Shown here piece after piece: positions 5,090-15,518 of a DNA stretch of 64,000 bases (within the stretch, counting starts at the first letter, position 1; the number at the start of each line of letters is the position of its first letter). The stretch spans positions 1 through 64,000 of the forward strand of contig NZ_JAAEEB010000001.1 in assembly GCF_013346935.1 (NCBI RefSeq), written 5' to 3'. The position numbers were made by a program, and so were the translations under genes. The DNA is from Lactobacillus melliventris (lineage in GTDB: Bacteria; Bacillota; Bacilli; Lactobacillales; Lactobacillaceae). Below the pieces are notes generated by a model that had not been told where the DNA came from, did not search any database, and saw only the letters and a list, made by a program, of their open reading frames with translations.

Positions 5090-6721
5090 ATGATAAGTAA
5101 ATTTTTGATTCCCGTCGCGATAGCTATAATTTCAATTATTGTTGGCGTTGTTGTAGGATACTTTATTCGTAAAAGGATCTGGGAGAAAAGGGCTCAGAAC
5201 GCTCAAAACGATGCCGACCATATTTTAACCGAAGCAAAAGCACGAGTTGACGCTGCTAAAGCTGAAGTCAATGCACAAAAGCAAGCGGCTGATGCTATTA
5301 AACAAAGTGCGCAAAACACTAAAAAAGAAAAAATTCTTGAAGCTCAAGAACAAATTCAAGACTATCGACAAAAAGTTGAAGATGAATTAAACGACAAACG
5401 TGACAAAATTGCACGCGATCAAAATCGCTTAACCCAACGAGAGGATACTCTTGATCATAAAAACTCTTTGCTAAAAGAAAAAGAGGATGATTTAACTAAA
5501 AAAGATGAACAGCTAGAGCAAAAGCAAACAGAATTAGCTGCTAAATTGCAAAAAGCTGATGCATTAGTTGAACAGACTACGCAGAAGCTTTACGAAGTGG
5601 CTCATTTAGACAAAGAGCAGGCAAAAAAGCTTGTTTTAGATCAATTAGCAGATGAATTAGTTAAAGAACGGGCAGAGTTGATTAGTAATAGTAATCAAGA
5701 AGTAAAAGCTAAAGCTGACCATTATGCGCGCAAAATAATTATTGATGCAATTCAAAGTAGCTCGGCAGATACAGTAGCTGAAACAACAGTATCTGTAGTT
5801 GATTTGCCTAATGAGGAAATGAAGGGTCGAATTATTGGTCGTGAAGGACGTAATATTAGATCTTTTGAAGCTCTTACTGGAGTTGATCTTATAATTGATG
5901 ACACTCCAAAAGTTGTAACTTTAAGTGGTTTTGATGCCATCAGGCGTGAAATTGCGAAAAGGGCAATGGAACGTTTGATTAAGGATGGACGCATTCATCC
6001 GGCTCGAATAGAGGAAACAGTTGATAAAGCTCGTAAAGAAGTAAACGATGATATTTACGAAGCTGGAGAAAGCGCTCTAATGGAGCTGGGAATTCATAAA
6101 ATGAATCCAGAACTGGTTAAAATATTGGGTAGACTCAAATACCGGACATCTTATGGTCAAAATGTTTTGGGTCATTCAATTGAAGTTGCAAAATTAGCTG
6201 GTACAATGGCTGCGGAGCTTGGATTAAATGAAAAATTAGCCGTTCGCGCGGGATTATTACACGATATTGGAAAAGCAGTCGACCATGACATTGAAGGTTC
6301 ACACGTAGAAATTGGTGTAGAACTGACAAGGAAGTATCATGAGCCGGATGTGGTTGTTAATGCAATTGCAGCACACCATGGGGATGTGCCTAAGTTATCA
6401 TTTATTGCTGAATTGGTAGTTGCAGCGGATACCATTTCTTCTGCAAGACCTGGTGCTAGAAGCGAAAGTTTGGAAAATTATATCAGAAGACTTACCGACC
6501 TCGAGCAAATAGCAAATAGGTATGATGGAGTCAAACAAGCGTATGCTATTCAAGCTGGTCGAGAAGTCCGCGTGATGGTTGAACCTGACAAGATTTCAGA
6601 TGATCGTATTACAGTTTTAGCACGCGACATTCGCAATCAAATTGAAAAAGAACTTGATTACCCGGGTAATATTAAAATAACAGTTATTCGTGAAAAACGT
6701 GCTGTATCAATTGCAAAGTAA
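5090..6721 (+). CDS. rny: ribonuclease Y
   Basis: This membrane-anchored endoribonuclease starts bulk mRNA decay in Firmicutes. Its parts in order are an N-terminal transmembrane helix (about residues 5-26), a long charged coiled coil (about 30-200), a KH RNA-binding domain with the GREG loop at 250-253, and an HD hydrolase domain with the metal-binding His391-Asp392. The length of 543 residues is close to that of B. subtilis Rny. The upstream site AAGGCG is weak. The gene has its own promoter and a strong terminator. Confidence 0.97.
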
Positions 6722-6724
6722 ATA

Positions 6725-6756
6725 AAAGGATTGAATGCAAAATTCAATCCTTTTTT
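6725..6756 (+). terminator. rny terminator
   Basis: AAAGGATTGAA pairs with TTCAATCCTTT and is followed by six T. Confidence 0.88.
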
Positions 6757-6796
6757 GTTTTGTAATATATCTTCAAAATATGGCGTAAATTAACAT

Positions 6797-6816
6797 AAAA
6801 AAGCGCAAAAAAGCAC
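6797..6816 (+). repeat. 10-bp tandem direct repeat upstream of the AraC gene
   Basis: Two copies of AAAAAAGCRC (6797-6806 and 6807-6816) lie head to tail, one helical turn apart, about 50 bases before the regulator start. Paired direct half-sites in phase are typical of AraC-family binding sites, so this may be its operator. No convincing -35 was found; a TATACAAT string near 6838 may be part of a -10. Confidence 0.3.
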
Positions 6817-6868
6817 ATTTTGGTAAAATGAAAGGGTATACAATACGGATTGAATGGAGGAACCTGCT

Positions 6869-7864
6869 ATGAATCTAAAAATAACAACTGAATTAAAAGA
6901 TTTCCTACTAGAATTAGGTTACCCATTTAATTCAATTTCTGGTTTACTTGATTCTAGCGTAATGGACAAATATCTGAATGCAAAGTGGATTAAAAATTCT
7001 CATGTATTTGAAATGTTAGACAAAGAAGCAAATGATAAACAGCTGTTGAAGTGTAGTGATGTTCGTAATTTTTACCAATTTGTTCCCCCATATTTTGCAG
7101 CTTTGTCAAGCAAAAATGGCTTACAGGCAATTTCCCGCCTAGCAGCTTACCAGCAGCTTATAGGTCCAATTGAAATGGGAACTTTTGAGGAAGGTGAAAA
7201 ATTAAGAATTCATATTAAATATTTGGACAAATATCGTAAATTTTCACGTTTTAGCCTATTAGTAGATCAAATTTCTTTAGTAAGTCTGATTAGAGCAGGT
7301 ACAAATAAATGTGTTATACCCGTATCTATTGGGAGCAAATATGAGTATGGATCAAGAATAAATAAATATTTAGGTATTGAAGCTCAAAATAGCTTAGACA
7401 ATTATTTGGTGTTTAGAAAGTATGATTTGGAGCAGTCATTTGTAACCAAAAATGATGTAATGTGGAATTTCATGGAGCCTGGTTTGAAAAAGTACATAAA
7501 AGAATTAAATATAAATCCTCCAATTTCTGCAGTGGTACAAAACACTCTGTTTAAATTGATAGCCGGAGGTAATTTTCAGGTAAAAGACGTAGCAAATAAA
7601 CTGGGTATTTCATCAAGAACATTACAAAGATGGCTGCAAAATGAAGGCACAACTTTTAAAAAACAGTTAAGTATTGTGCAGAAAATTTTGGCTCAAAATC
7701 TACTTCAAGACAGAACTTTAAATACTGTAGAAGTAAGTTTTCTAGTTGGCTTTAATAGTGTTTCTTCGTTCTATAAAGCCTTTAAGAAATGGACAGGAGT
7801 GACTGTTAAAGAATATAGGCTTCAAGCAATATTAAAAACTAATAGTATAAATGCGGTAATTTAA
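6869..7864 (+). CDS. AraC-family transcriptional regulator
   Basis: The protein has 331 residues. The N-terminal two thirds resemble the ligand-binding domain found in OruR/XylS-like AraC proteins (PF12625 type). The C-terminal 100 residues hold the double helix-turn-helix, with VANKLGISSRTLQRWLQ as the first reading helix and the FNSVSSFYKAFKKWTG block as the second. The open frame begins 5 codons earlier at 6854, but GGAGG at 6856-6860 lies inside that stretch and is well placed for the ATG at 6869. Only 15 bases separate its stop from the first reductase, so it probably heads that operon and controls it. Confidence 0.88.
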   Translation: MNLKITTELKDFLLELGYPFNSISGLLDSSVMDKYLNAKWIKNSHVFEMLDKEANDKQLLKCSDVRNFYQFVPPYFAALSSKNGLQAISRLAAYQQLIGPIEMGTFEEGEKLRIHIKYLDKYRKFSRFSLLVDQISLVSLIRAGTNKCVIPVSIGSKYEYGSRINKYLGIEAQNSLDNYLVFRKYDLEQSFVTKNDVMWNFMEPGLKKYIKELNINPPISAVVQNTLFKLIAGGNFQVKDVANKLGISSRTLQRWLQNEGTTFKKQLSIVQKILAQNLLQDRTLNTVEVSFLVGFNSVSSFYKAFKKWTGVTVKEYRLQAILKTNSINAVI

Positions 7865-7879
7865 TTAGGAGGAAACAAA

Positions 7880-9685
7880 ATGTTTTTAAAAGATAACGAA
7901 TCATGGAATGCAACTTATGATGTTGTGGTAATCGGTTTTGGTGGAGCAGGTGCTACAGCAGCACGTTTCGCTGCAGATAAAGGAGCAAAAGTCCTTTTAG
8001 TAGATAGTGCACCAGAGGGACATGAAGGTGGTAATACCAGATATTGTGGACAGATTGTTGAAGCAGGTTATGATTATGAAAAGCTAAAAAAGTATTATCA
8101 AAAAATGACTGCTCCACTTGATTTAGATGAGCAGGTGCTAGAAACTTTTGTAAAAGGGATGGTCAATTTACCAGATTACTTCGAAAAGTATCTCGGTGGT
8201 AAAGCATTCAGCGTTAAAAATAACCCAGGTAACAAAAATGTTGCTATGTTGGCATACATGAGTGCTGAATATCCCGAATTTGAAGGTGCAGATACAAACG
8301 ACGACTTGTTAGTGCATGATCAAATATTCGATGCTGCTCTTTGGAAGAAATTGCGCCAGAATGTTTTAGATCGCAGCGACAAGATTGATGTGCTTTATTC
8401 AACGCCAGCAAAGCATTTAATTCAGGATACTGATAAGACAATAATAGGTGTACAGATTAAAAATAAAGGCAAGTTGTTCAACGTCCATGCAAAAAATGGT
8501 GTAGTTTTAGCACTTGGTGGATTTGAAAATAACGAACAAATGGTGCAGGATTATTTAGGTGAAACTAATTTATTACCATACGGTACGCTTTATAACAATG
8601 GCGATGGCATCAAAATGGCTATAGAAGTTGGTGCAGATTTGTGGCACATGAATAATTATGAACCAGGTGGAACTGTTAATTTAGCTGCTCCCAAAGGCCA
8701 AAGAGCTCATAACATTATGGCCTGGAAAGCATTATTTGCCGGTTCACTGATCACAGTTGGCGATGATGGTACACGTTATGTAGCAGAAGACGATCCAACC
8801 CGTCATGGTCATCGCTATAATCATGGTATTTGGAGAATCCCTTTAGCCCAAGTGCATCCTCATATGATTTTTGATCAGAATAAATACGATGAACTATTCT
8901 CAGCTGAGAATGATGAATTTCAAAAGGAAGCTTTAACTAAAGTGGTTAAGTCAGAAACTATCGCTGACTTAGCTCAAGAAATAAAAGTTGATCCGGCAGT
9001 TTTAGAAAATACTTTGAACACGTATAATTTCTTCGTTGATCGAGGAGTTGATTACCAATGTGGACGTAAGCCAGAGTCAATGACCAAAATTTCACTTACG
9101 GGTCCATTTTATTCGTTAGCTCAACAACACACCATGTTAAACACCCAGGGTGGCCCACGCCGAAATAAAAATGCTGAAGTATTAGATACAGATCAGAAAA
9201 TTTTGCCACACTTATATGCTGCTGGTGAACTGGGTCATATAGGTGCAAATCAATATAATGGCGGGGGTGACATGGCTGACTGCTTAATATTTGGTAAGAT
9301 AGCTGGAGAAAATGCCGCCAAAATTAAAGATGATCAAGTTGTTTCAGGTGCCAGTGTTAGTGAAAATAATGCTGATACTGCATTTCCTGAATCAGATGTT
9401 AAAGAAGAAAGCTATTCAACTGCTGAAAATCAATACATTGGTAAATCTTCAAGTGGCATGGGCAATGAAATCGTAGTGCGAGTAACAGTTGACAGTGATA
9501 AGCGTCCAAGCAATATTGAAGTTTTAAAAGAAAGCGAATCACCTGACTACGGTGAAAAAGCAATTAAGGAAATGAAAACAGAAATGCTAGCTAAGAAAAC
9601 AGCTAACGTAGATGCTGTTTCTGGAGCTTCTGCATCAAGTCGCGCATTTAAAGAAGCTGTAGTATCTGCTTTGAAGCAGGCATAG
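7880..9685 (+). CDS. FAD-dependent reductase with C-terminal covalent-FMN domain
   Basis: Residues 1-500 are an FAD_binding_2 (fumarate reductase/urocanate reductase-like) flavoprotein with the dinucleotide loop GFGGAG at 19-24. Residues about 525-600 are an FMN_bind domain ending in DAVSGAS (578-584), the site type that ApbE flavinylates, so Ser584 is the likely attachment residue. No signal peptide is present, suggesting a cytoplasmic enzyme. By hand alignment with Shewanella Fcc3, the catalytic HHTMGG block reads MLNTQGG and the ANRLGG block reads ANQYNGG, so the substrate-binding His and Arg of true fumarate reductases are missing. An Arg near 305 (PTRHG) may keep the proton-donor position. 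The substrate is unknown; an unsaturated organic acid or enone is likely. It is cotranscribed with the AraC gene and the next reductase. Confidence 0.85.
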   Translation: MFLKDNESWNATYDVVVIGFGGAGATAARFAADKGAKVLLVDSAPEGHEGGNTRYCGQIVEAGYDYEKLKKYYQKMTAPLDLDEQVLETFVKGMVNLPDYFEKYLGGKAFSVKNNPGNKNVAMLAYMSAEYPEFEGADTNDDLLVHDQIFDAALWKKLRQNVLDRSDKIDVLYSTPAKHLIQDTDKTIIGVQIKNKGKLFNVHAKNGVVLALGGFENNEQMVQDYLGETNLLPYGTLYNNGDGIKMAIEVGADLWHMNNYEPGGTVNLAAPKGQRAHNIMAWKALFAGSLITVGDDGTRYVAEDDPTRHGHRYNHGIWRIPLAQVHPHMIFDQNKYDELFSAENDEFQKEALTKVVKSETIADLAQEIKVDPAVLENTLNTYNFFVDRGVDYQCGRKPESMTKISLTGPFYSLAQQHTMLNTQGGPRRNKNAEVLDTDQKILPHLYAAGELGHIGANQYNGGGDMADCLIFGKIAGENAAKIKDDQVVSGASVSENNADTAFPESDVKEESYSTAENQYIGKSSSGMGNEIVVRVTVDSDKRPSNIEVLKESESPDYGEKAIKEMKTEMLAKKTANVDAVSGASASSRAFKEAVVSALKQA

Positions 9686-9706
9686 ATTTTAACGAAAGGA
9701 TAAGAA

Positions 9707-11503
9707 ATGGCAAATTTAAAAGATGGTATTTATCAGGGAAAAGGCTCTGGTAATCGTGGTGAAGTCAAGGTTTCGGTAAAAGTCAAAGACAATAAAATTA
9801 CGGATATAACAATTGATCAACAAGATGAAACTTCTGGCATAAGCACTGCTGCTTTAAAAAAAGCACCGAAGCTAATTGTTGAGCATCAGTCATATAATAT
9901 TGACGCAGTCACCGGAGCAACTATTAGTTTTCAAGCTGTACAAAAAGCAGTCAAAGTTGCTGTTTCAAAAGCTGGCGATCCCAGTGGTCTTGATAAAAGA
10001 GTTGATCTTAGAAATACAGTGAAAAAGGATGATGGTAAGGACTACCGTAACGTCAATCCAGATGATTTGCAATTTGAAGATCATGCTGACGTGTTGGTAA
10101 TTGGTGCTGGAGCTGCTGGACTTGCAGCTTCCATTACAGCAAGGCAAAAAAGTGCTTCCGTAATATGTTTGGAATATACATCAAGCTATATGCTATCTGA
10201 TATGACTCTGTCTGGAGGTTATTACAATGCTGGTGGTGGTACTAGCTTGCAAAAAGCGCAAGGTATTAAAGACTCTAAAGACAATTGGAATAATTATTTG
10301 AAAGCAGTCGGTCAAGGATACGAAGATGCGGATATGCGTGAAATAATAGTAGAACATGCTGCTGAAGATTATGAATGGCTTGCTGGAGAAGTTGGGGTCA
10401 ATTTCCAAGAAGTACAAGAAATTGGCAATGAAGAAGCAATGAAAGAATATGCGACTCCGGCAGCAAGGTCTCATTTAACTGTCGAAAAAAGTGGCTATGG
10501 TCTTTCAAAGCCACTTTACAATAAGGCAAAAGCAGTTGGCACAAAATTTATTTTTAATATTACAGCTGAGAACTTAATTACTGATGAGAAAAATAATGTA
10601 GTTGGTGTACATACTAATAAAGGTAACTACAAAGCTCAAAGCGTTGTTATTGCAACTGCAGGTTTTTCACGCAATAAAGAAATGCTTAAAAGCTTTGCAC
10701 CAGATTTTGCTGTAGGAGAATCATATGGTTCTATTAGGCAAATGGGTGATGGTATCACAATGGGTGCAGAAATTGGCGCCAAGTTAAAAGATATGTGGAT
10801 GCCAATAGCAAATTCTATTGGAACTCAATCAGGCGATAATGTTTGTATTGGGCCTTTGTGCACAGCTTGGACAAAACCTTATATTTGGGTTGGAACAGAT
10901 GCTAAAAGACACTTTAGAGAAGATATGTATTTCGAATACGCTTCTAAGAAAATTGCTGATCTAGATCATGGTTTCGTGTGGCTGATTTTCGATGAAGGAA
11001 TGGCAAATGAAATGCCAGCTGCCTTTTCTGCCCCAGCTCCTTCACCGCATTTAAAACGCGAAGTAGAAGATGGCTACTTTAAAAAAGCAGATACTATCGC
11101 GGAATTAGCAGAGCAAATTAATTTAAACCCTAATGTGTTAGAGAAAACAATTGCTAAATGGAATAATGATGTAAACAATGGTCAAGATACGGAATTTGGT
11201 CGCCAAAAAGATTTAACTGCTTTTAAGGCTCCATACTATGCCGCTAAACTTGCGCCATCAACACCGGATATGGCTGGAGGATTGTGCATCAATACTAAAG
11301 CAGAAGTTTTGGATAATTTTGATAGAAAAATTAGTAATCTCTTTGCTGCTGGTAGTACGACAGGCGGATGGCGAGGAATGACCTATCCAGGTTGCGGAAT
11401 GGGTATTACAAACGCTATTGTTTTTGGCAGAATTGCCGGTGAAAGTGCTGCAAAGAATGCTCAAGTAAAAACTGATACTAATTCTGGTGCTTCACAGAAT
11501 TAG
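9707..11503 (+). CDS. FAD-dependent reductase with N-terminal covalent-FMN domain
   Basis: The domain order is the mirror of the preceding gene. An FMN_bind domain comes first (residues 1-90, flavinylation motif DAVTGAT at 66-72, Thr72 the likely site), then an FAD_binding_2 domain with GAGAAG at 133-138. There is no signal peptide. The fumarate-reductase catalytic blocks are absent: the HHTMGG equivalent is PDMAGG, and the C-terminal block reads GMTYPGCGMG, closer to the YPGPG block of 3-ketosteroid dehydrogenase-like enzymes. Its substrate therefore probably differs from fumarate and from that of its neighbour. It lies 21 bases after the previous stop with an AAAGGA site, and a terminator follows. 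No apbE gene lies in the window. Confidence 0.85.
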   Translation: MANLKDGIYQGKGSGNRGEVKVSVKVKDNKITDITIDQQDETSGISTAALKKAPKLIVEHQSYNIDAVTGATISFQAVQKAVKVAVSKAGDPSGLDKRVDLRNTVKKDDGKDYRNVNPDDLQFEDHADVLVIGAGAAGLAASITARQKSASVICLEYTSSYMLSDMTLSGGYYNAGGGTSLQKAQGIKDSKDNWNNYLKAVGQGYEDADMREIIVEHAAEDYEWLAGEVGVNFQEVQEIGNEEAMKEYATPAARSHLTVEKSGYGLSKPLYNKAKAVGTKFIFNITAENLITDEKNNVVGVHTNKGNYKAQSVVIATAGFSRNKEMLKSFAPDFAVGESYGSIRQMGDGITMGAEIGAKLKDMWMPIANSIGTQSGDNVCIGPLCTAWTKPYIWVGTDAKRHFREDMYFEYASKKIADLDHGFVWLIFDEGMANEMPAAFSAPAPSPHLKREVEDGYFKKADTIAELAEQINLNPNVLEKTIAKWNNDVNNGQDTEFGRQKDLTAFKAPYYAAKLAPSTPDMAGGLCINTKAEVLDNFDRKISNLFAAGSTTGGWRGMTYPGCGMGITNAIVFGRIAGESAAKNAQVKTDTNSGASQN

Positions 11504-11524
11504 TTTTTGGAGTTAAATATAATT

Positions 11525-11555
11525 AAAACTGGATACATTTGCATCCAGTTTTTTA
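11525..11555 (+). terminator. terminator of the AraC-reductase operon
   Basis: AACTGGAT and ATCCAGTT form a perfect 8-bp stem running into a T run. Confidence 0.85.
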
Positions 11556-11585
11556 TTTGGAAATATTTATGATAATCAACCTAAT

Positions 11586-11614
11586 TTGTGCATTTTTGCT
11601 CTACCCTGTATAAT
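11586..11614 (+). promoter_or_regulatory. tagO promoter
   Basis: The -35 TTGTGC (11586-11591) and a perfect -10 TATAAT (11609-11614) are separated by 17 bases, about 30 bases before the start codon. Confidence 0.7.
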
Positions 11615-11644
11615 TAAGACAACTTTAAATGAAAGTAGCCGACT

Positions 11645-12799
11645 ATGTTTAAAATTATTGTTGAATTATTCTTTTTAGTGATTATACAGGCTGCGATCAC
11701 ACCTTTTATTAGGCGATTAGCTTTCGTATTAGGTGCTGTCGACATTCCCAATAAAAGAAGAGTAAATAAAAAACCGATGCCAACCCTAGGGGGATTGGGT
11801 ATTTTTGTCACCTTCAATATAGGAGCTTTTATTCTCCTGCGCGATCAGTTTCCAACTCATGAAGCATTTAGCATACTTTTAGGCTCAAGTGTAATTGTCT
11901 TGACTGGCATAATCGATGATATTATGGAGCTGAAGCCAAGACAAAAAATGCTGGGTATTTTTATTGGCGCTTTAGTAATTTATTTTCTTGCCGGTATTAA
12001 AATGAATGTTCTCAACCTGCCATTTTTGAATAAACAAATAAATCTGGGATGGTGGAGTCTGCCAATTACCATTTTTTGGATCTTAGCTTTAACTAATGCT
12101 GTTGACTTAATTGATGGACTTGACGGATTGGCTGATGGTGTCTCTATGATTTCACTCATAACGATGGGAATTGTCGGCTATTTCTTTTTGCACACCGGCC
12201 AACTCTATATTCCGATCGGCTGTTTTATGCTGGCAGCTTGTTTACTGGGCTTTTTACCATATAATTTTCACCCGGCTAAAATATTTTTAGGCGATACCGG
12301 TGCTTTATACATCGGATTTATGATTGCCGTATTTTCTCTAAAAGGCTTGAAGAACGTAACTTTCATTTCGCTGCTTGTGCCGGTTACTATTCTAGGCGTG
12401 CCGATTACCGATACGCTTTATGCTATGATTCGGCGCAAACTTAATAATCGACCCGTTTCCCAAGCTGATAAGCACCATTTGCATCATCAACTAATGAGAA
12501 TGGGCTTAACCCACAGACAAACGGTTTTAAGTATTTATGCAATATCACTGGTCTTTTCTTTTATTTCCCTGTTATTTTTATTGTCACCAATGTGGGGCAT
12601 GTGGGTCTTAATTGCTGGTCTGGCAGTTGCACTTGAATTTTTCGTAGAGTCCATTGGGCTTTTAGGTGAAAAATATAAGCCTCTGCTGAATTTAACCCAA
12701 AAATTAATTAATTCACGCAGTAAAAAAGATCCAACAGTTGAGGTATGGCATTTGGGACAAGATAAACCTGAGCAATTAAAAAAGAAGAAAAAAGAATAA
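11645..12799 (+). CDS. tagO: undecaprenyl-phosphate GlcNAc-1-phosphate transferase
   Basis: This polytopic enzyme transfers GlcNAc-1-P from UDP-GlcNAc to undecaprenyl phosphate, the first step of wall teichoic acid and other wall polysaccharides. The MraY/WecA/TagO family blocks are present: GIIDDIMELKP (metal-binding Asp pair), NAVDLIDGLDGLADG, FLGDTG, and the cytoplasmic His loop HHLHHQL that marks the GlcNAc-type enzymes. There are about eleven membrane spans and a Lys-rich tail. The ribosome site is weak (GAAAG). It has its own promoter and terminator. Confidence 0.93.
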   Translation: MFKIIVELFFLVIIQAAITPFIRRLAFVLGAVDIPNKRRVNKKPMPTLGGLGIFVTFNIGAFILLRDQFPTHEAFSILLGSSVIVLTGIIDDIMELKPRQKMLGIFIGALVIYFLAGIKMNVLNLPFLNKQINLGWWSLPITIFWILALTNAVDLIDGLDGLADGVSMISLITMGIVGYFFLHTGQLYIPIGCFMLAACLLGFLPYNFHPAKIFLGDTGALYIGFMIAVFSLKGLKNVTFISLLVPVTILGVPITDTLYAMIRRKLNNRPVSQADKHHLHHQLMRMGLTHRQTVLSIYAISLVFSFISLLFLLSPMWGMWVLIAGLAVALEFFVESIGLLGEKYKPLLNLTQKLINSRSKKDPTVEVWHLGQDKPEQLKKKKKE

Positions 12800-13548: not shown

Positions 13549-14832
13549 ATGGAAAATATTTCTCATCTTGCTGGTCGTCAATGGCTTAGTAGTCAACTGG
13601 ATTTTAGCACAAAGAAAGGTATAACAAAAATCAAGTCTGTTATCAACGATCGGTGTTCACGCTGCAATGCTAAAGTTTGGGCTAAATTGCCGAATGGCAA
13701 AAGATATTGTCGCGAATGTATCGGTTTAGGAAGAGTGGTTGAAGGCGATTATCTTATTCGTAATGAAGAGAAAGTAAACTTTCCCCGCACAAAAAACGGT
13801 GGCTTAACTTGGAGTGGTAAATTAACAGCTCAACAAGAAAAAATTGCTCAGGATTTGGTTAAGAACTATATGAATAAGCAAAATACTTTAGTTCATGCAG
13901 TAACCGGTGCTGGTAAAACTGAAATGATGTTTCCTTTGATTGCTCACTGTTTAGCAGAAGGTAAGCGGTGCTGCATAGCCGCACCAAGAATCGATGTAGT
14001 TAATGAATTATTTCCCCGCTTGCAAGTGGCATTCACTGAAATCAAAATTGGTAAATATCATGGGCATGAATACCAAGAGCCAGGCTTAGAGCAATTAACC
14101 ATCTGTACCACCCATCAATTATTAAAATTTTTCTGTGCTTTTGACCTATTGATCATTGATGAAGCTGATTCTTTTCCATATGTGCAGAACCCTGAGCTTA
14201 ATTTTGCTTCGAAAAATGCGCTTAAGAATAATGGCCAGATGGTCTATCTGACAGCAACACCTACAAAAGATTTATTAAAACTGGTTAAAAAGGGCCAAAT
14301 TCAGCAATTAAAGTTAAATAGACGTTTTCATGGCTATTCCTTGCCTGTACCAAAAGAAAAACTGTTTTTACGTCCATTTTTAGAAGGTAAACGAATTAAT
14401 CCAAAACTTGTGCAAGAAATTAGCAAAGTAATTAAGTCTAAGCATCCACTACTTTTATTTTTGCCCAGAATTGATTTGATTAAGCCATATGTTAGCGCAC
14501 TTAGAAATGAGCCTGAATTTAAGCAAATAACAATAGAGGGTGTACATGCTAATGATGTACAGAGAATTGCAAAAGTTGATAATTTCAGGCGTGGACAAAT
14601 ACAATTGCTTGTTACCACTACTATTTTGGAACGTGGTGTAACCTTTAATCATGTTTGGGTGATTGTAGTTCAAGCAGATGATAAAATTTATAATACTTCT
14701 AGTTTAGTCCAAATTGCTGGTAGAGTTGGTCGCGCTAAGACTGATCCAACGGGTTTAATATTATTTTGCTACCAAAAATATACTTCAAGTCTGCGTAATG
14801 CTATGAAACAAATTCGTGAGATGAATAAATGA
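13549..14832 (+). CDS. comFA: competence DNA-uptake helicase ComFA
   Basis: This DEAD-box-like ATPase helps pull single-stranded DNA into the cell during transformation. A four-Cys zinc motif (Cys36, Cys39, Cys54, Cys57) precedes the helicase core. Walker A TGAGKT is at 119-124, Walker B is DEAD at 204-207, and motif VI is in the QIAGRVGRAK region. The frame opens at a TTG (13537), but GGAGG overlaps that codon and fits the ATG at 13549. The gene is intact and overlaps comFC. No ComX-type CIN box or other competence promoter was recognised in the short intergenic space. Confidence 0.95.
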   Translation: MENISHLAGRQWLSSQLDFSTKKGITKIKSVINDRCSRCNAKVWAKLPNGKRYCRECIGLGRVVEGDYLIRNEEKVNFPRTKNGGLTWSGKLTAQQEKIAQDLVKNYMNKQNTLVHAVTGAGKTEMMFPLIAHCLAEGKRCCIAAPRIDVVNELFPRLQVAFTEIKIGKYHGHEYQEPGLEQLTICTTHQLLKFFCAFDLLIIDEADSFPYVQNPELNFASKNALKNNGQMVYLTATPTKDLLKLVKKGQIQQLKLNRRFHGYSLPVPKEKLFLRPFLEGKRINPKLVQEISKVIKSKHPLLLFLPRIDLIKPYVSALRNEPEFKQITIEGVHANDVQRIAKVDNFRRGQIQLLVTTTILERGVTFNHVWVIVVQADDKIYNTSSLVQIAGRVGRAKTDPTGLILFCYQKYTSSLRNAMKQIREMNK

Positions 14833-15518
14833 AAAAATGCCTATTATGTGGACAATATTTTATTTCAAAAATGTCATTTTTAAATTTATTTTCCTTGCAC
14901 CGAAAGGATCGAAAAAGTATTTGTGACCACTGTTTAAAAAAGTTCATTCATGTACCTGAAAAGCATTGTCCAATATGCTCAGGCAGTTCGAAGCAAAATC
15001 AGATTTGTTCAGACTGTGTGAATTGGCAAAAAATATACGGCGAAAAGTTGTTAATTAATCACTCTGTGTATTTATATAACAGAGCATTTCATGATTTAAT
15101 GGTTAACTATAAGCGCTATGGTGACTACATTTTATACGCTGCACTGCAAGAATTGTGTGTTAAAGAACTATCTGAATTTAAAGCTGATGTTTATGTTCCA
15201 GTTCCAACTTCTCCTGAGCACATCGCTAAAAGACAATTCGATACAATCACTGCACTGTACGGTAGTCTTGTTCCTTTAACAAACATGCTGGGTAAGAAAG
15301 CAGGACTAGGAGCCCAAGGAGAGAAGAATCGGGCCGAAAGATTAACTAGTGAGCAAAGTTTTTTTGTTAAGGAAAACTTTACGATTAATTTTCAAAAATG
15401 CACTGTCCTCTTGCTGGATGACATATACACTACTGGCAGAACGCTTTATCATGCTCGAGATGCGCTGGCAAAAATTTTCCCTAATGCGAAAATCAGTAGT
15501 TTTACCTTATGTAGATAA
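14829..15518 (+). CDS. comFC: competence protein ComFC (phosphoribosyltransferase fold)
   Basis: ComFC is the cytoplasmic partner of ComFA in DNA uptake. The N-terminus holds three CxxC pairs (CLLCG, CDHC, CPIC) and a CSDC pair, consistent with zinc fingers. The C-terminus has the phosphoribosyltransferase loop LLLDDIYTTGRT. The start overlaps the comFA stop (ATGA), so the two are translationally coupled. At 229 residues it is full length. Confidence 0.95.
   Translation: MKKCLLCGQYFISKMSFLNLFSLHRKDRKSICDHCLKKFIHVPEKHCPICSGSSKQNQICSDCVNWQKIYGEKLLINHSVYLYNRAFHDLMVNYKRYGDYILYAALQELCVKELSEFKADVYVPVPTSPEHIAKRQFDTITALYGSLVPLTNMLGKKAGLGAQGEKNRAERLTSEQSFFVKENFTINFQKCTVLLLDDIYTTGRTLYHARDALAKIFPNAKISSFTLCR

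Follow-up and report, generated by a model that had tools for sequence, protein, structure and literature searches.

A 64,000-nucleotide stretch of the Lactobacillus melliventris genome (contig NZ_JAAEEB010000001.1; hereafter, the window) contains a gene for an AraC-family regulator followed by genes for two flavoreductases, named here P1 and P2. Our analysis suggests, with a probability of about 0.5, that the three genes form a self-contained, movable cassette that reduces plant-derived or other dietary compounds by means of two cytosolic ene-reductases of the carbonyl type, each carrying covalently bound flavin mononucleotide (FMN). The host genome (G000) comprises 2.01 Mb in 28 contigs. If the proposal is right, these are candidate genes for the handling of pollen and nectar plant compounds by bee-gut Lactobacillus.

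P1 and P2 consist of the same two domains in opposite order, as the original prediction for this DNA had claimed; the coordinates, strand, lengths and tandem order of the genes were also as given there. In P1, FAD_binding_2 (residues 14-462, E = 1.2e-32) precedes FMN_bind (526-599, E = 1.7e-14), an arrangement called C-FMN below, while in P2, of the N-FMN type, FMN_bind (15-86, E = 1.7e-14) precedes FAD_binding_2 (128-567, E = 1.9e-48). The FAD_binding_2 model PF00890, with a cut-off of 20.4 bits, scores 114.1 bits in P1 and 166.1 bits in P2; given the E-values and the conservation, a chance match of either protein to these families is ruled out. Besides the FMN_bind domain, both proteins contain D-x-x-[ST]-G-A-[ST], the ApbE flavinylation motif, located where it had been placed earlier: DAVSGAS with Ser584 in P1 and DAVTGAT with Thr72 in P2. 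No signal peptide was seen by inspection in either protein, the P1 chain opening straight with the Rossmann fold and that of P2 with FMN_bind; the possibility that they are secreted is thereby ruled out, and their predicted cytoplasmic location is further backed by an ApbE without a signal in the same genome (see below). FMN_red (PF03358) had no match in P1 or P2 in the Pfam search. NCBIfam models for KstD scored below their cut-offs of 788 and 789 (PRK07843 and PRK12844: 129.9 and 143.2 bits for P2, 130.3 and 128.1 bits for P1), as did the VprA model NF053717 (123.9 bits for P1 and 141.8 bits, E = 3e-41, for P2; cut-off 600).

The active sites were compared by alignment with solved proteins, in the numbering of the flavocytochrome c3 fumarate reductase Fcc3 (Arg544 being 545 in the 1d4d count used). 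The column of the hinge residue His504 holds Leu420 in P1 and Pro520 in P2, and that of Arg544 holds Tyr459 and Tyr560, respectively. The same column holds Tyr536 of 7P18 and Tyr486 of the 4AT0 chain, the latter presumably Tyr466 in the original numbering, in which Tyr319 and Tyr466 are the 4AT0 residues concerned. The third position is that of Arg402, the proposed proton donor, which the original prediction did not consider. Here Thr307 stands in P1, Arg308 being adjacent, so that a one-residue shift would align the arginine, and P2 has Phe409 preceded by Tyr408; the column of Tyr339 of the 4AT0 chain holds Tyr408 in P2 and Pro in P1. Tyr459 is invariant among 29 aligned C-FMN proteins, and Arg308 is at least 90% conserved among 29 aligned relatives of P1. 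In UrdA, the residues equivalent to the three positions (Arg411, His520 and Arg560) serve carboxylate binding and proton transfer, as described in part of PMC7921117. This set is kept in three of 14 proteins listed, all FMN_red+FMN_bind+FAD_binding_2 fusions (L195, L197 and L198), the remaining 11, P1 and P2 among them, having Tyr at the Arg544 column. Judged from the alignment, both active sites are probably of the carbonyl type, with Tyr in place of the carboxylate-binding Arg. The claim that both enzymes lack the HHTMGG histidine and the ANRLGG arginine, and hence a fumarate-type site, is borne out by the replacement of the His504 and Arg544 columns in both; a ketosteroid-dehydrogenase-like block was correctly recognised in P2 (Tyr560), but it is not confined to the second enzyme, as Tyr459 is present in P1 too. 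The occurrence of this Tyr in both proteins makes enoates and cinnamates less likely substrates.

The AlphaFold2 models of P1 and P2 have predicted local distance difference test values of 87.4 and 81.8 and predicted template modelling scores of 0.88 and 0.83, respectively. On re-examination of the 1000 best chains from Foldseek, the best structural match of P2 among the chains compared was 4at0, a ketosteroid-Δ4-(5α)-dehydrogenase (Z 41.8, 446 residues, root-mean-square deviation 4.1), against Z 40.1 for 1qo8 and 39.9 for 6t85.

Candidate genes for flavinylation and for electron supply are encoded elsewhere in the genome. It contains two copies of apbE: the product of one has a lipoprotein-like N-terminus, whereas that of the other, judged by eye in G000, shows no signal. 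The gene of the signal-less ApbE (309 aa, L108:6291-7217; PF02424, 233.5 bits) has two FMN_red genes (182 aa) upstream of it, the nearer at a distance of 0.9 kb, and the cluster of the three genes (L108:4297-7220, G000:C3) might supply electrons generally to flavinylated reductases of the cytosol. The other copy of apbE lies beside a gene for an FMN_bind protein whose N-terminus is likewise lipoprotein-like; with a long gene nearby that resembles those for dehydrogenases of reduced nicotinamide adenine dinucleotide (NADH), this group looks like an extracellular electron transfer cluster (L107:6462-8531, G000:C3). Of 74 same-genus genomes, 71 gave a close match (56-100% identity) to the signal-less ApbE and 72 gave one to FMN_red, the two lying at most 4 kb apart in 69 of the 71 genomes having both (the exceptions are G003 and G057); the three genomes with no ApbE match (G001, G024 and G051) are assemblies 57-69% complete. 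With ApbE so nearly universal in the genus, its co-occurrence with the P1 family was unusable as a test. FMN_red is fused to reductases of both kinds: to FAD_binding_2 and FMN_bind in C-FMN order in L124 (814 aa), L201 (793 aa) and L203 (796 aa), and in N-FMN order in L195, L197 and L198 (805-808 aa). Since both kinds have such fusions, service of P1 and P2 by a separate FMN_red is supported, not proven. A 288-aa protein with FMN_red and FMN_bind domains alone (L197:10604-11467) is a possible stand-alone electron shuttle. In Lactobacillus johnsonii the FRedA/B pair uses NADH as its sole donor and forms H2O2, according to passages of PMC4500961. On this analysis, the chromosomal FMN_red pair probably feeds electrons to P1 and P2.

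The distribution of the genes indicates, as far as comparison of sequences can, that AraC-P1-P2 is a movable cassette that has been gained, lost and moved between sites. P2 at 81-100% identity was found in nine of the 74 same-genus genomes, always with the AraC and P1 genes adjacent. Seven of the nine carry the unit between rny and a gene for a Glycos_transf_4 protein, which we take to be tagO, and two (G052 and G010) carry it at a second site, presumably between mevalonate-pathway-like genes and a nitroreductase-like gene. At the place of the G010 unit, G049 has a different cassette (C-FMN, N-FMN and alcohol dehydrogenase genes) between flanks whose proteins are 84-98% identical to those of G010; one chromosomal site thus holds two alternative reductase-pair cassettes (L094/L095 versus L128). 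Among 12 unit-free rny loci, selected by hand from the rny matches and fetched, rny is directly followed by tagO in 11, the twelfth (G010) having a 680-aa protein between them; in G040, one of the 11, rny and tagO are 99% and 100% identical to those of the window. In G035, AraC and P1 occur at rny-tagO without P2.

Beyond these genomes, a search of named records with two peptide patterns, which misses relatives without the patterns, found P2 in L. kullabergensis, L. laiwuensis, L. kimbladii, L. huangpiensis, Lactobacillus sp. W8174, ESL0679 and a Lactobacillus metagenome-assembled genome (99%), as well as in Secundilactobacillus mixtipabuli (71%) and S. paracollinoides (74%, frame interrupted). 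The S. paracollinoides gene consists of two open frames of 166 and 437 aa (L123:8001-9799); either the gene is broken or the sequence contains an error. The other named Lactobacillus carriers, like L. kullabergensis, are presumably bee-associated; L. kullabergensis itself is a honey-bee gut species (PMC8456714). When 397 genomes were drawn evenly from the family, the eight other same-genus carriers evidently not being among them, P2 was found at E <=1e-100 in three, namely G000 and two of one other genus, whose P2 positions match both Secundilactobacillus loci. At both of these loci a gene for a zinc alcohol dehydrogenase comes immediately before P2, with gaps of 49 and 43 bp. In a search for this dehydrogenase in 150 relatives, the best match is 49% identical (G122), with no FMN_bind/FAD_binding_2 reductase matching P1 or P2 among the genes of the 15 kb fetched there, and the matches listed for the same genus show at most 46% identity over short stretches; the link of P2 itself with an alcohol dehydrogenase therefore rests on two Secundilactobacillus species. 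None of eight pattern-matched stretches in viral contigs encodes a relative of P2. All 451 records obtained by tblastn of P2 against PLSDB are below 60% identity, so there is no sign of plasmid-borne P2 in that database.

The best-surviving alternative, which we nevertheless consider rather unlikely, is that P1 and P2 catalyse two consecutive steps on one compound, always occur together, and are controlled by an AraC protein sensing that compound. The constant gene order in all nine same-genus P2 genomes, at two sites, and the narrow intergenic gaps in the window (15 and 21 bp) speak for it, and they also support the earlier idea of one unit with the AraC regulator. The originally predicted two-step pathway, if taken as obligate, is not supported, given the G035 locus and the two Secundilactobacillus genomes, where the search for a P1 ortholog gave C-FMN relatives of 49-54% identity over long stretches and at most 60% over fragments, but no ortholog (completeness is 91% and contamination 8% in one of these assemblies, G426); moreover, the P1 frame of G019 is interrupted.

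We prefer the reading of the cassette as a set of individually working carbonyl-type reductases, in which the following course would be expected. The chromosomal FMN_red pair, of the FRedA/B type, would oxidise NADH; the signal-less ApbE would have attached FMN to Ser584 of P1 and Thr72 of P2; and electrons would pass from FMN_red to the covalent FMN and then to flavin adenine dinucleotide (FAD), from which a C=C bond would receive them as hydride. The carbonyl oxygen of the substrate would be hydrogen-bonded by Tyr459 in P1 or Tyr560 in P2, aided by a nearby glycine, carbonyl binding by Tyr and glycine being the mechanism of ketosteroid dehydrogenases. With the carbonyl held by Tyr, and no carboxylate held at the Arg544 and His504 positions, one would expect enones, enals or quinone-like compounds as substrates, in preference to fumarate, urocanate or cinnamates. 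The proton donor would probably be Arg308 in P1, and Tyr408 or water in P2. Most likely, the double bonds reduced by P1 and P2 would be different or successive ones in related compounds, with neither enzyme depending on the other, and the AraC protein, presumably on binding its ligand, would switch the cassette on.

Several observations weigh against this reading. First, the cassette itself has no FMN_red gene, and the ApbE/FMN_red pair also occurs in genomes without close P1 relatives (e.g., G005 and G009), so that the presence of the pair alone says little. Second, the fold of P1 slightly favours the fumarate reductase 1qo8 (Z 37.2) over 6t86 (36.1), 4at0 (35.9) and 7p18 (35.6), and P1 is therefore not singled out as ketosteroid-dehydrogenase-like by its fold; besides, a ketosteroid-type fold leaves the direction of the reaction unfixed. 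Third, five aligned N-FMN proteins (L012, L067, L068, L074 and L076) retain HHTMGG and NRLGG, hence the N-FMN architecture alone is no proof of the carbonyl type. Fourth, the Arg beside the Arg402 column of P1 is an acid-reductase-like trait, and P2 lacks the Tyr that the ketosteroid dehydrogenase 7p18 carries at that column. Finally, P1 is not intact in every carrier: one TGA interrupts its frame in L. kullabergensis (G019), where a 488-aa frame remains without the FMN_bind part (L088:5325-6791); again, either the gene is broken or the sequence contains an error.

The acid-reductase-like trait bears on a second alternative, the reduction of α,β-unsaturated carboxylic acids such as hydroxycinnamates, in the manner of HcrAB or Par1, with the carboxylate held by other residues. 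Pollen is rich in acids of the hydroxycinnamate type, C-FMN reductases fused to FMN_red exist (the L124, L201 and L203 proteins), and P1 retains Arg308. In addition, HcrB, which contains the FMN_red domain COG0431, reduces hydroxycinnamates at the expense of NADH, as stated in passages of PMC10295242. However, P1 and P2 both have other residues at the His504 and Arg544 columns, whereas the full set is kept by the three fusions L195, L197 and L198. We call these fusions HcrB-like, putatively, on account of their domains and of neighbouring genes of the FMN_red, ApbE and, for L195 and L197, LysR types. This alternative thus appears unlikely.

Less probable still is the operation of both enzymes in the oxidative direction, as dehydrogenases passing electrons to extracellular electron transfer or to oxygen. 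It would agree with the ketosteroid-dehydrogenase-type Tyr in both proteins, the fold of P2, and the host genes that resemble an extracellular electron transfer cluster (ApbE, FMN_bind, lipoprotein-like N-termini); on the other hand, the FMN relay domain, the FMN_red fusions of relatives and the fermentative host would favour reduction by NADH.

Pairs of N-FMN and C-FMN genes recur. They were counted among the same-genus matches listed (44 N-FMN rows from 24 genomes and 148 C-FMN rows from 44 genomes), the count being confined to that genus, other genera and orders left out, and to rows starting no later than query residue 62. Among these matches, 22 of the 44 N-FMN genes have a C-FMN gene on the same strand no more than 300 bp away, and the other 22 have no such neighbour. 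The 22 pairs fall into three types: nine P1-P2 pairs with the C-FMN gene first; seven with the N-FMN gene (547-568 aa) first, behind an alcohol-dehydrogenase-like gene in all seven fetched (its family was checked in two of the seven); and six others, also with the N-FMN gene first (601-612 aa in the three fetched). In a tree that included one C-FMN partner of the third type and was built without the 547-aa N-FMN type, the C-FMN partners of the first type and those of the second fall into two distinct, fully supported clades, and the sole third-type partner is placed unsurely on a long branch. Because of these separate clades the pairing looks to have arisen repeatedly, by the sequences at hand, though one shared origin with reshuffling may be the alternative. 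That P1 and P2 make up a single heteromeric enzyme, with two FMN relays and two FADs sharing or splitting electrons, would suit the 22 close pairs, but the equal number of N-FMN genes with no such neighbour among the matches listed, and P2 in two Secundilactobacillus genomes with no P1 ortholog found, make it very improbable.

Two further genes of the host belong here. A lone C-FMN reductase (L105:6055-7866, G000:C2) has orthologs with 84-85% identity in G071 and G032, where the flanks are shared and N-FMN and alcohol-dehydrogenase-like partners are present; G000 may have lost these partners. Between a transporter-like gene and two genes that presumably resemble those for shikimate dehydrogenase and 3-dehydroquinate dehydratase lies the gene of an N-FMN reductase whose Arg544 column holds Ser (L106:5763-10497, G000:C3); a relation of this reductase to quinate or shikimate is possible.

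More tentatively, AraC-P1-P2 could be one module of a plug-in system in which a fixed FMN_red/ApbE core feeds changing cassettes of one or two covalent-FMN ene-reductases, several with a regulator of their own, mostly of the carbonyl type and tuned to plant compounds, H2O2 formation by FMN_red in air being a by-product of a core whose true function would be to power the reductases. If this holds, AraC-P1-P2 would be common to bee-gut Lactobacillus, and Secundilactobacillus would share P2 plus an alcohol dehydrogenase. Among the 14 FAD_binding_2 reductases of G000, the Arg544 column holds Tyr in 11 and Ser in one, and two have the Arg/His/Arg set; on the preferred reading of P1 and P2, if right, the 14 fumarate-reductase-like proteins of one Lactobacillus genome would be sorted into acid-type (2) and carbonyl-type (11), each with a testable substrate class.

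The features of the locus are collected in Table 1. On sequence criteria, AraC, P1 and P2 form one operon-like unit between two terminator-like hairpins; at positions 6600-11750 nine terminator-like sites were found on both strands, compared with 3.0 (standard deviation 1.9) in shuffled sequences. The N-terminal part of the AraC-family regulator had no match in the Pfam search. Pfam-matched flanking genes are rny upstream and the Glycos_transf_4 gene downstream; farther out, we assume a recA-like gene before rny and yigZ-, comFA-, comFC-, hpf- and secA-like genes beyond the P2 side. The low guanine-plus-cytosine content over the AraC gene (0.320) was dropped as evidence, since it is nearly as low elsewhere in the window (0.334 at positions 14000-14899).

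Table 1. Features of the AraC-P1-P2 locus, in window positions.
Feature	Position	Strand	Basis and remarks
Terminator-like hairpin, upstream cassette border, after rny	6724..6754	+	13 pairs, T-rich tail; consensus match only
AraC-family regulator, 336 aa	6854..7864	+	AraC-type helix-turn-helix, residues 247-322
P1 flavoreductase, C-FMN type, 601 aa: FAD_binding_2, then C-terminal FMN_bind	7880..9685	+	Pfam, alignment, model
P1 Arg308 codon (RHGH), beside Fcc3 Arg402 column	8801..8803	+	Alignment; register uncertain by one residue
P1 Tyr459 codon, Fcc3 Arg544/ketosteroid dehydrogenase Tyr column	9254..9256	+	Alignment
P1 flavinylation motif DAVSGAS (residues 578-584, Ser584)	9611..9631	+	Motif
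P2 flavoreductase, N-FMN type, 598 aa: N-terminal FMN_bind, then FAD_binding_2	9707..11503	+	Pfam, alignment, model
P2 flavinylation motif DAVTGAT (residues 66-72, Thr72)	9902..9922	+	Motif
P2 Tyr560 codon in TYPGCG, Fcc3 Arg544/ketosteroid dehydrogenase Tyr column	11384..11386	+	Alignment
Terminator-like hairpin, downstream cassette border, after P2	11525..11552	+	Consensus match only

The architecture, fold family and maturation of P1 and P2 are of known kinds. No publication on these genes was found in a literature search of titles and abstract openings, and the words fumarate and reductase are absent from the main-text portion of PMC8456714. New here are the AraC-P1-P2 unit, the sorting into acid and carbonyl types, and the proposed link to an FMN_red/ApbE core (a link at which the literature search was not aimed). 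P1 and P2 resemble 4AT0 and the 3-ketosteroid Δ1-dehydrogenases (7P18/4C3X) in the fold of the FAD domain, 4at0 being the best match of P2, and in the Tyr at the Arg544 column, and Tyr408 of P2 falls in the Tyr339 column of the 4AT0 chain, where P1 has Pro. Ketosteroid dehydrogenases, however, oxidise steroids and are not known to carry an FMN_bind domain, and the Tyr of 7P18 at the Arg402 column is not found in P2, while P1 has Arg308 nearby. With Fcc3 and UrdA both proteins have the FAD_binding_2 fold in common, and the N-terminal domain of UrdA carries covalent FMN (PMC7921117, in part), as predicted for P2; unlike them, P1 and P2 have replacements at His504/His520 and Arg544/Arg560, P2 lacks Arg402, and no signal peptide is seen by inspection. 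HcrB reportedly has further domains besides FMN_red. The proposed likeness to HcrAB and Par1 of lactobacilli is C=C reduction driven by NADH and involving FMN_red (COG0431; passages of PMC10295242), but P1 and P2 have no fused FMN_red, their regulator is of the AraC and not the LysR family, and the carboxylate set of the HcrB-like proteins is missing. The vinylphenol reductase VprA is similar in having a substrate without a carboxylate (same passages) and in its sub-cut-off family match; it differs in that P1 and P2 stay far below the 600-bit cut-off and, again, in its LysR regulator. Finally, the FRedA/B pair of L. johnsonii would have its counterpart in the FMN_red pair encoded near ApbE in this genus, the likely donor; the published role of FRedA/B is H2O2 production (PMC4500961, in part), and its extension to flavinylated reductases would, if true, give a physiological acceptor to an NADH-FMN reductase so far studied as a source of H2O2.

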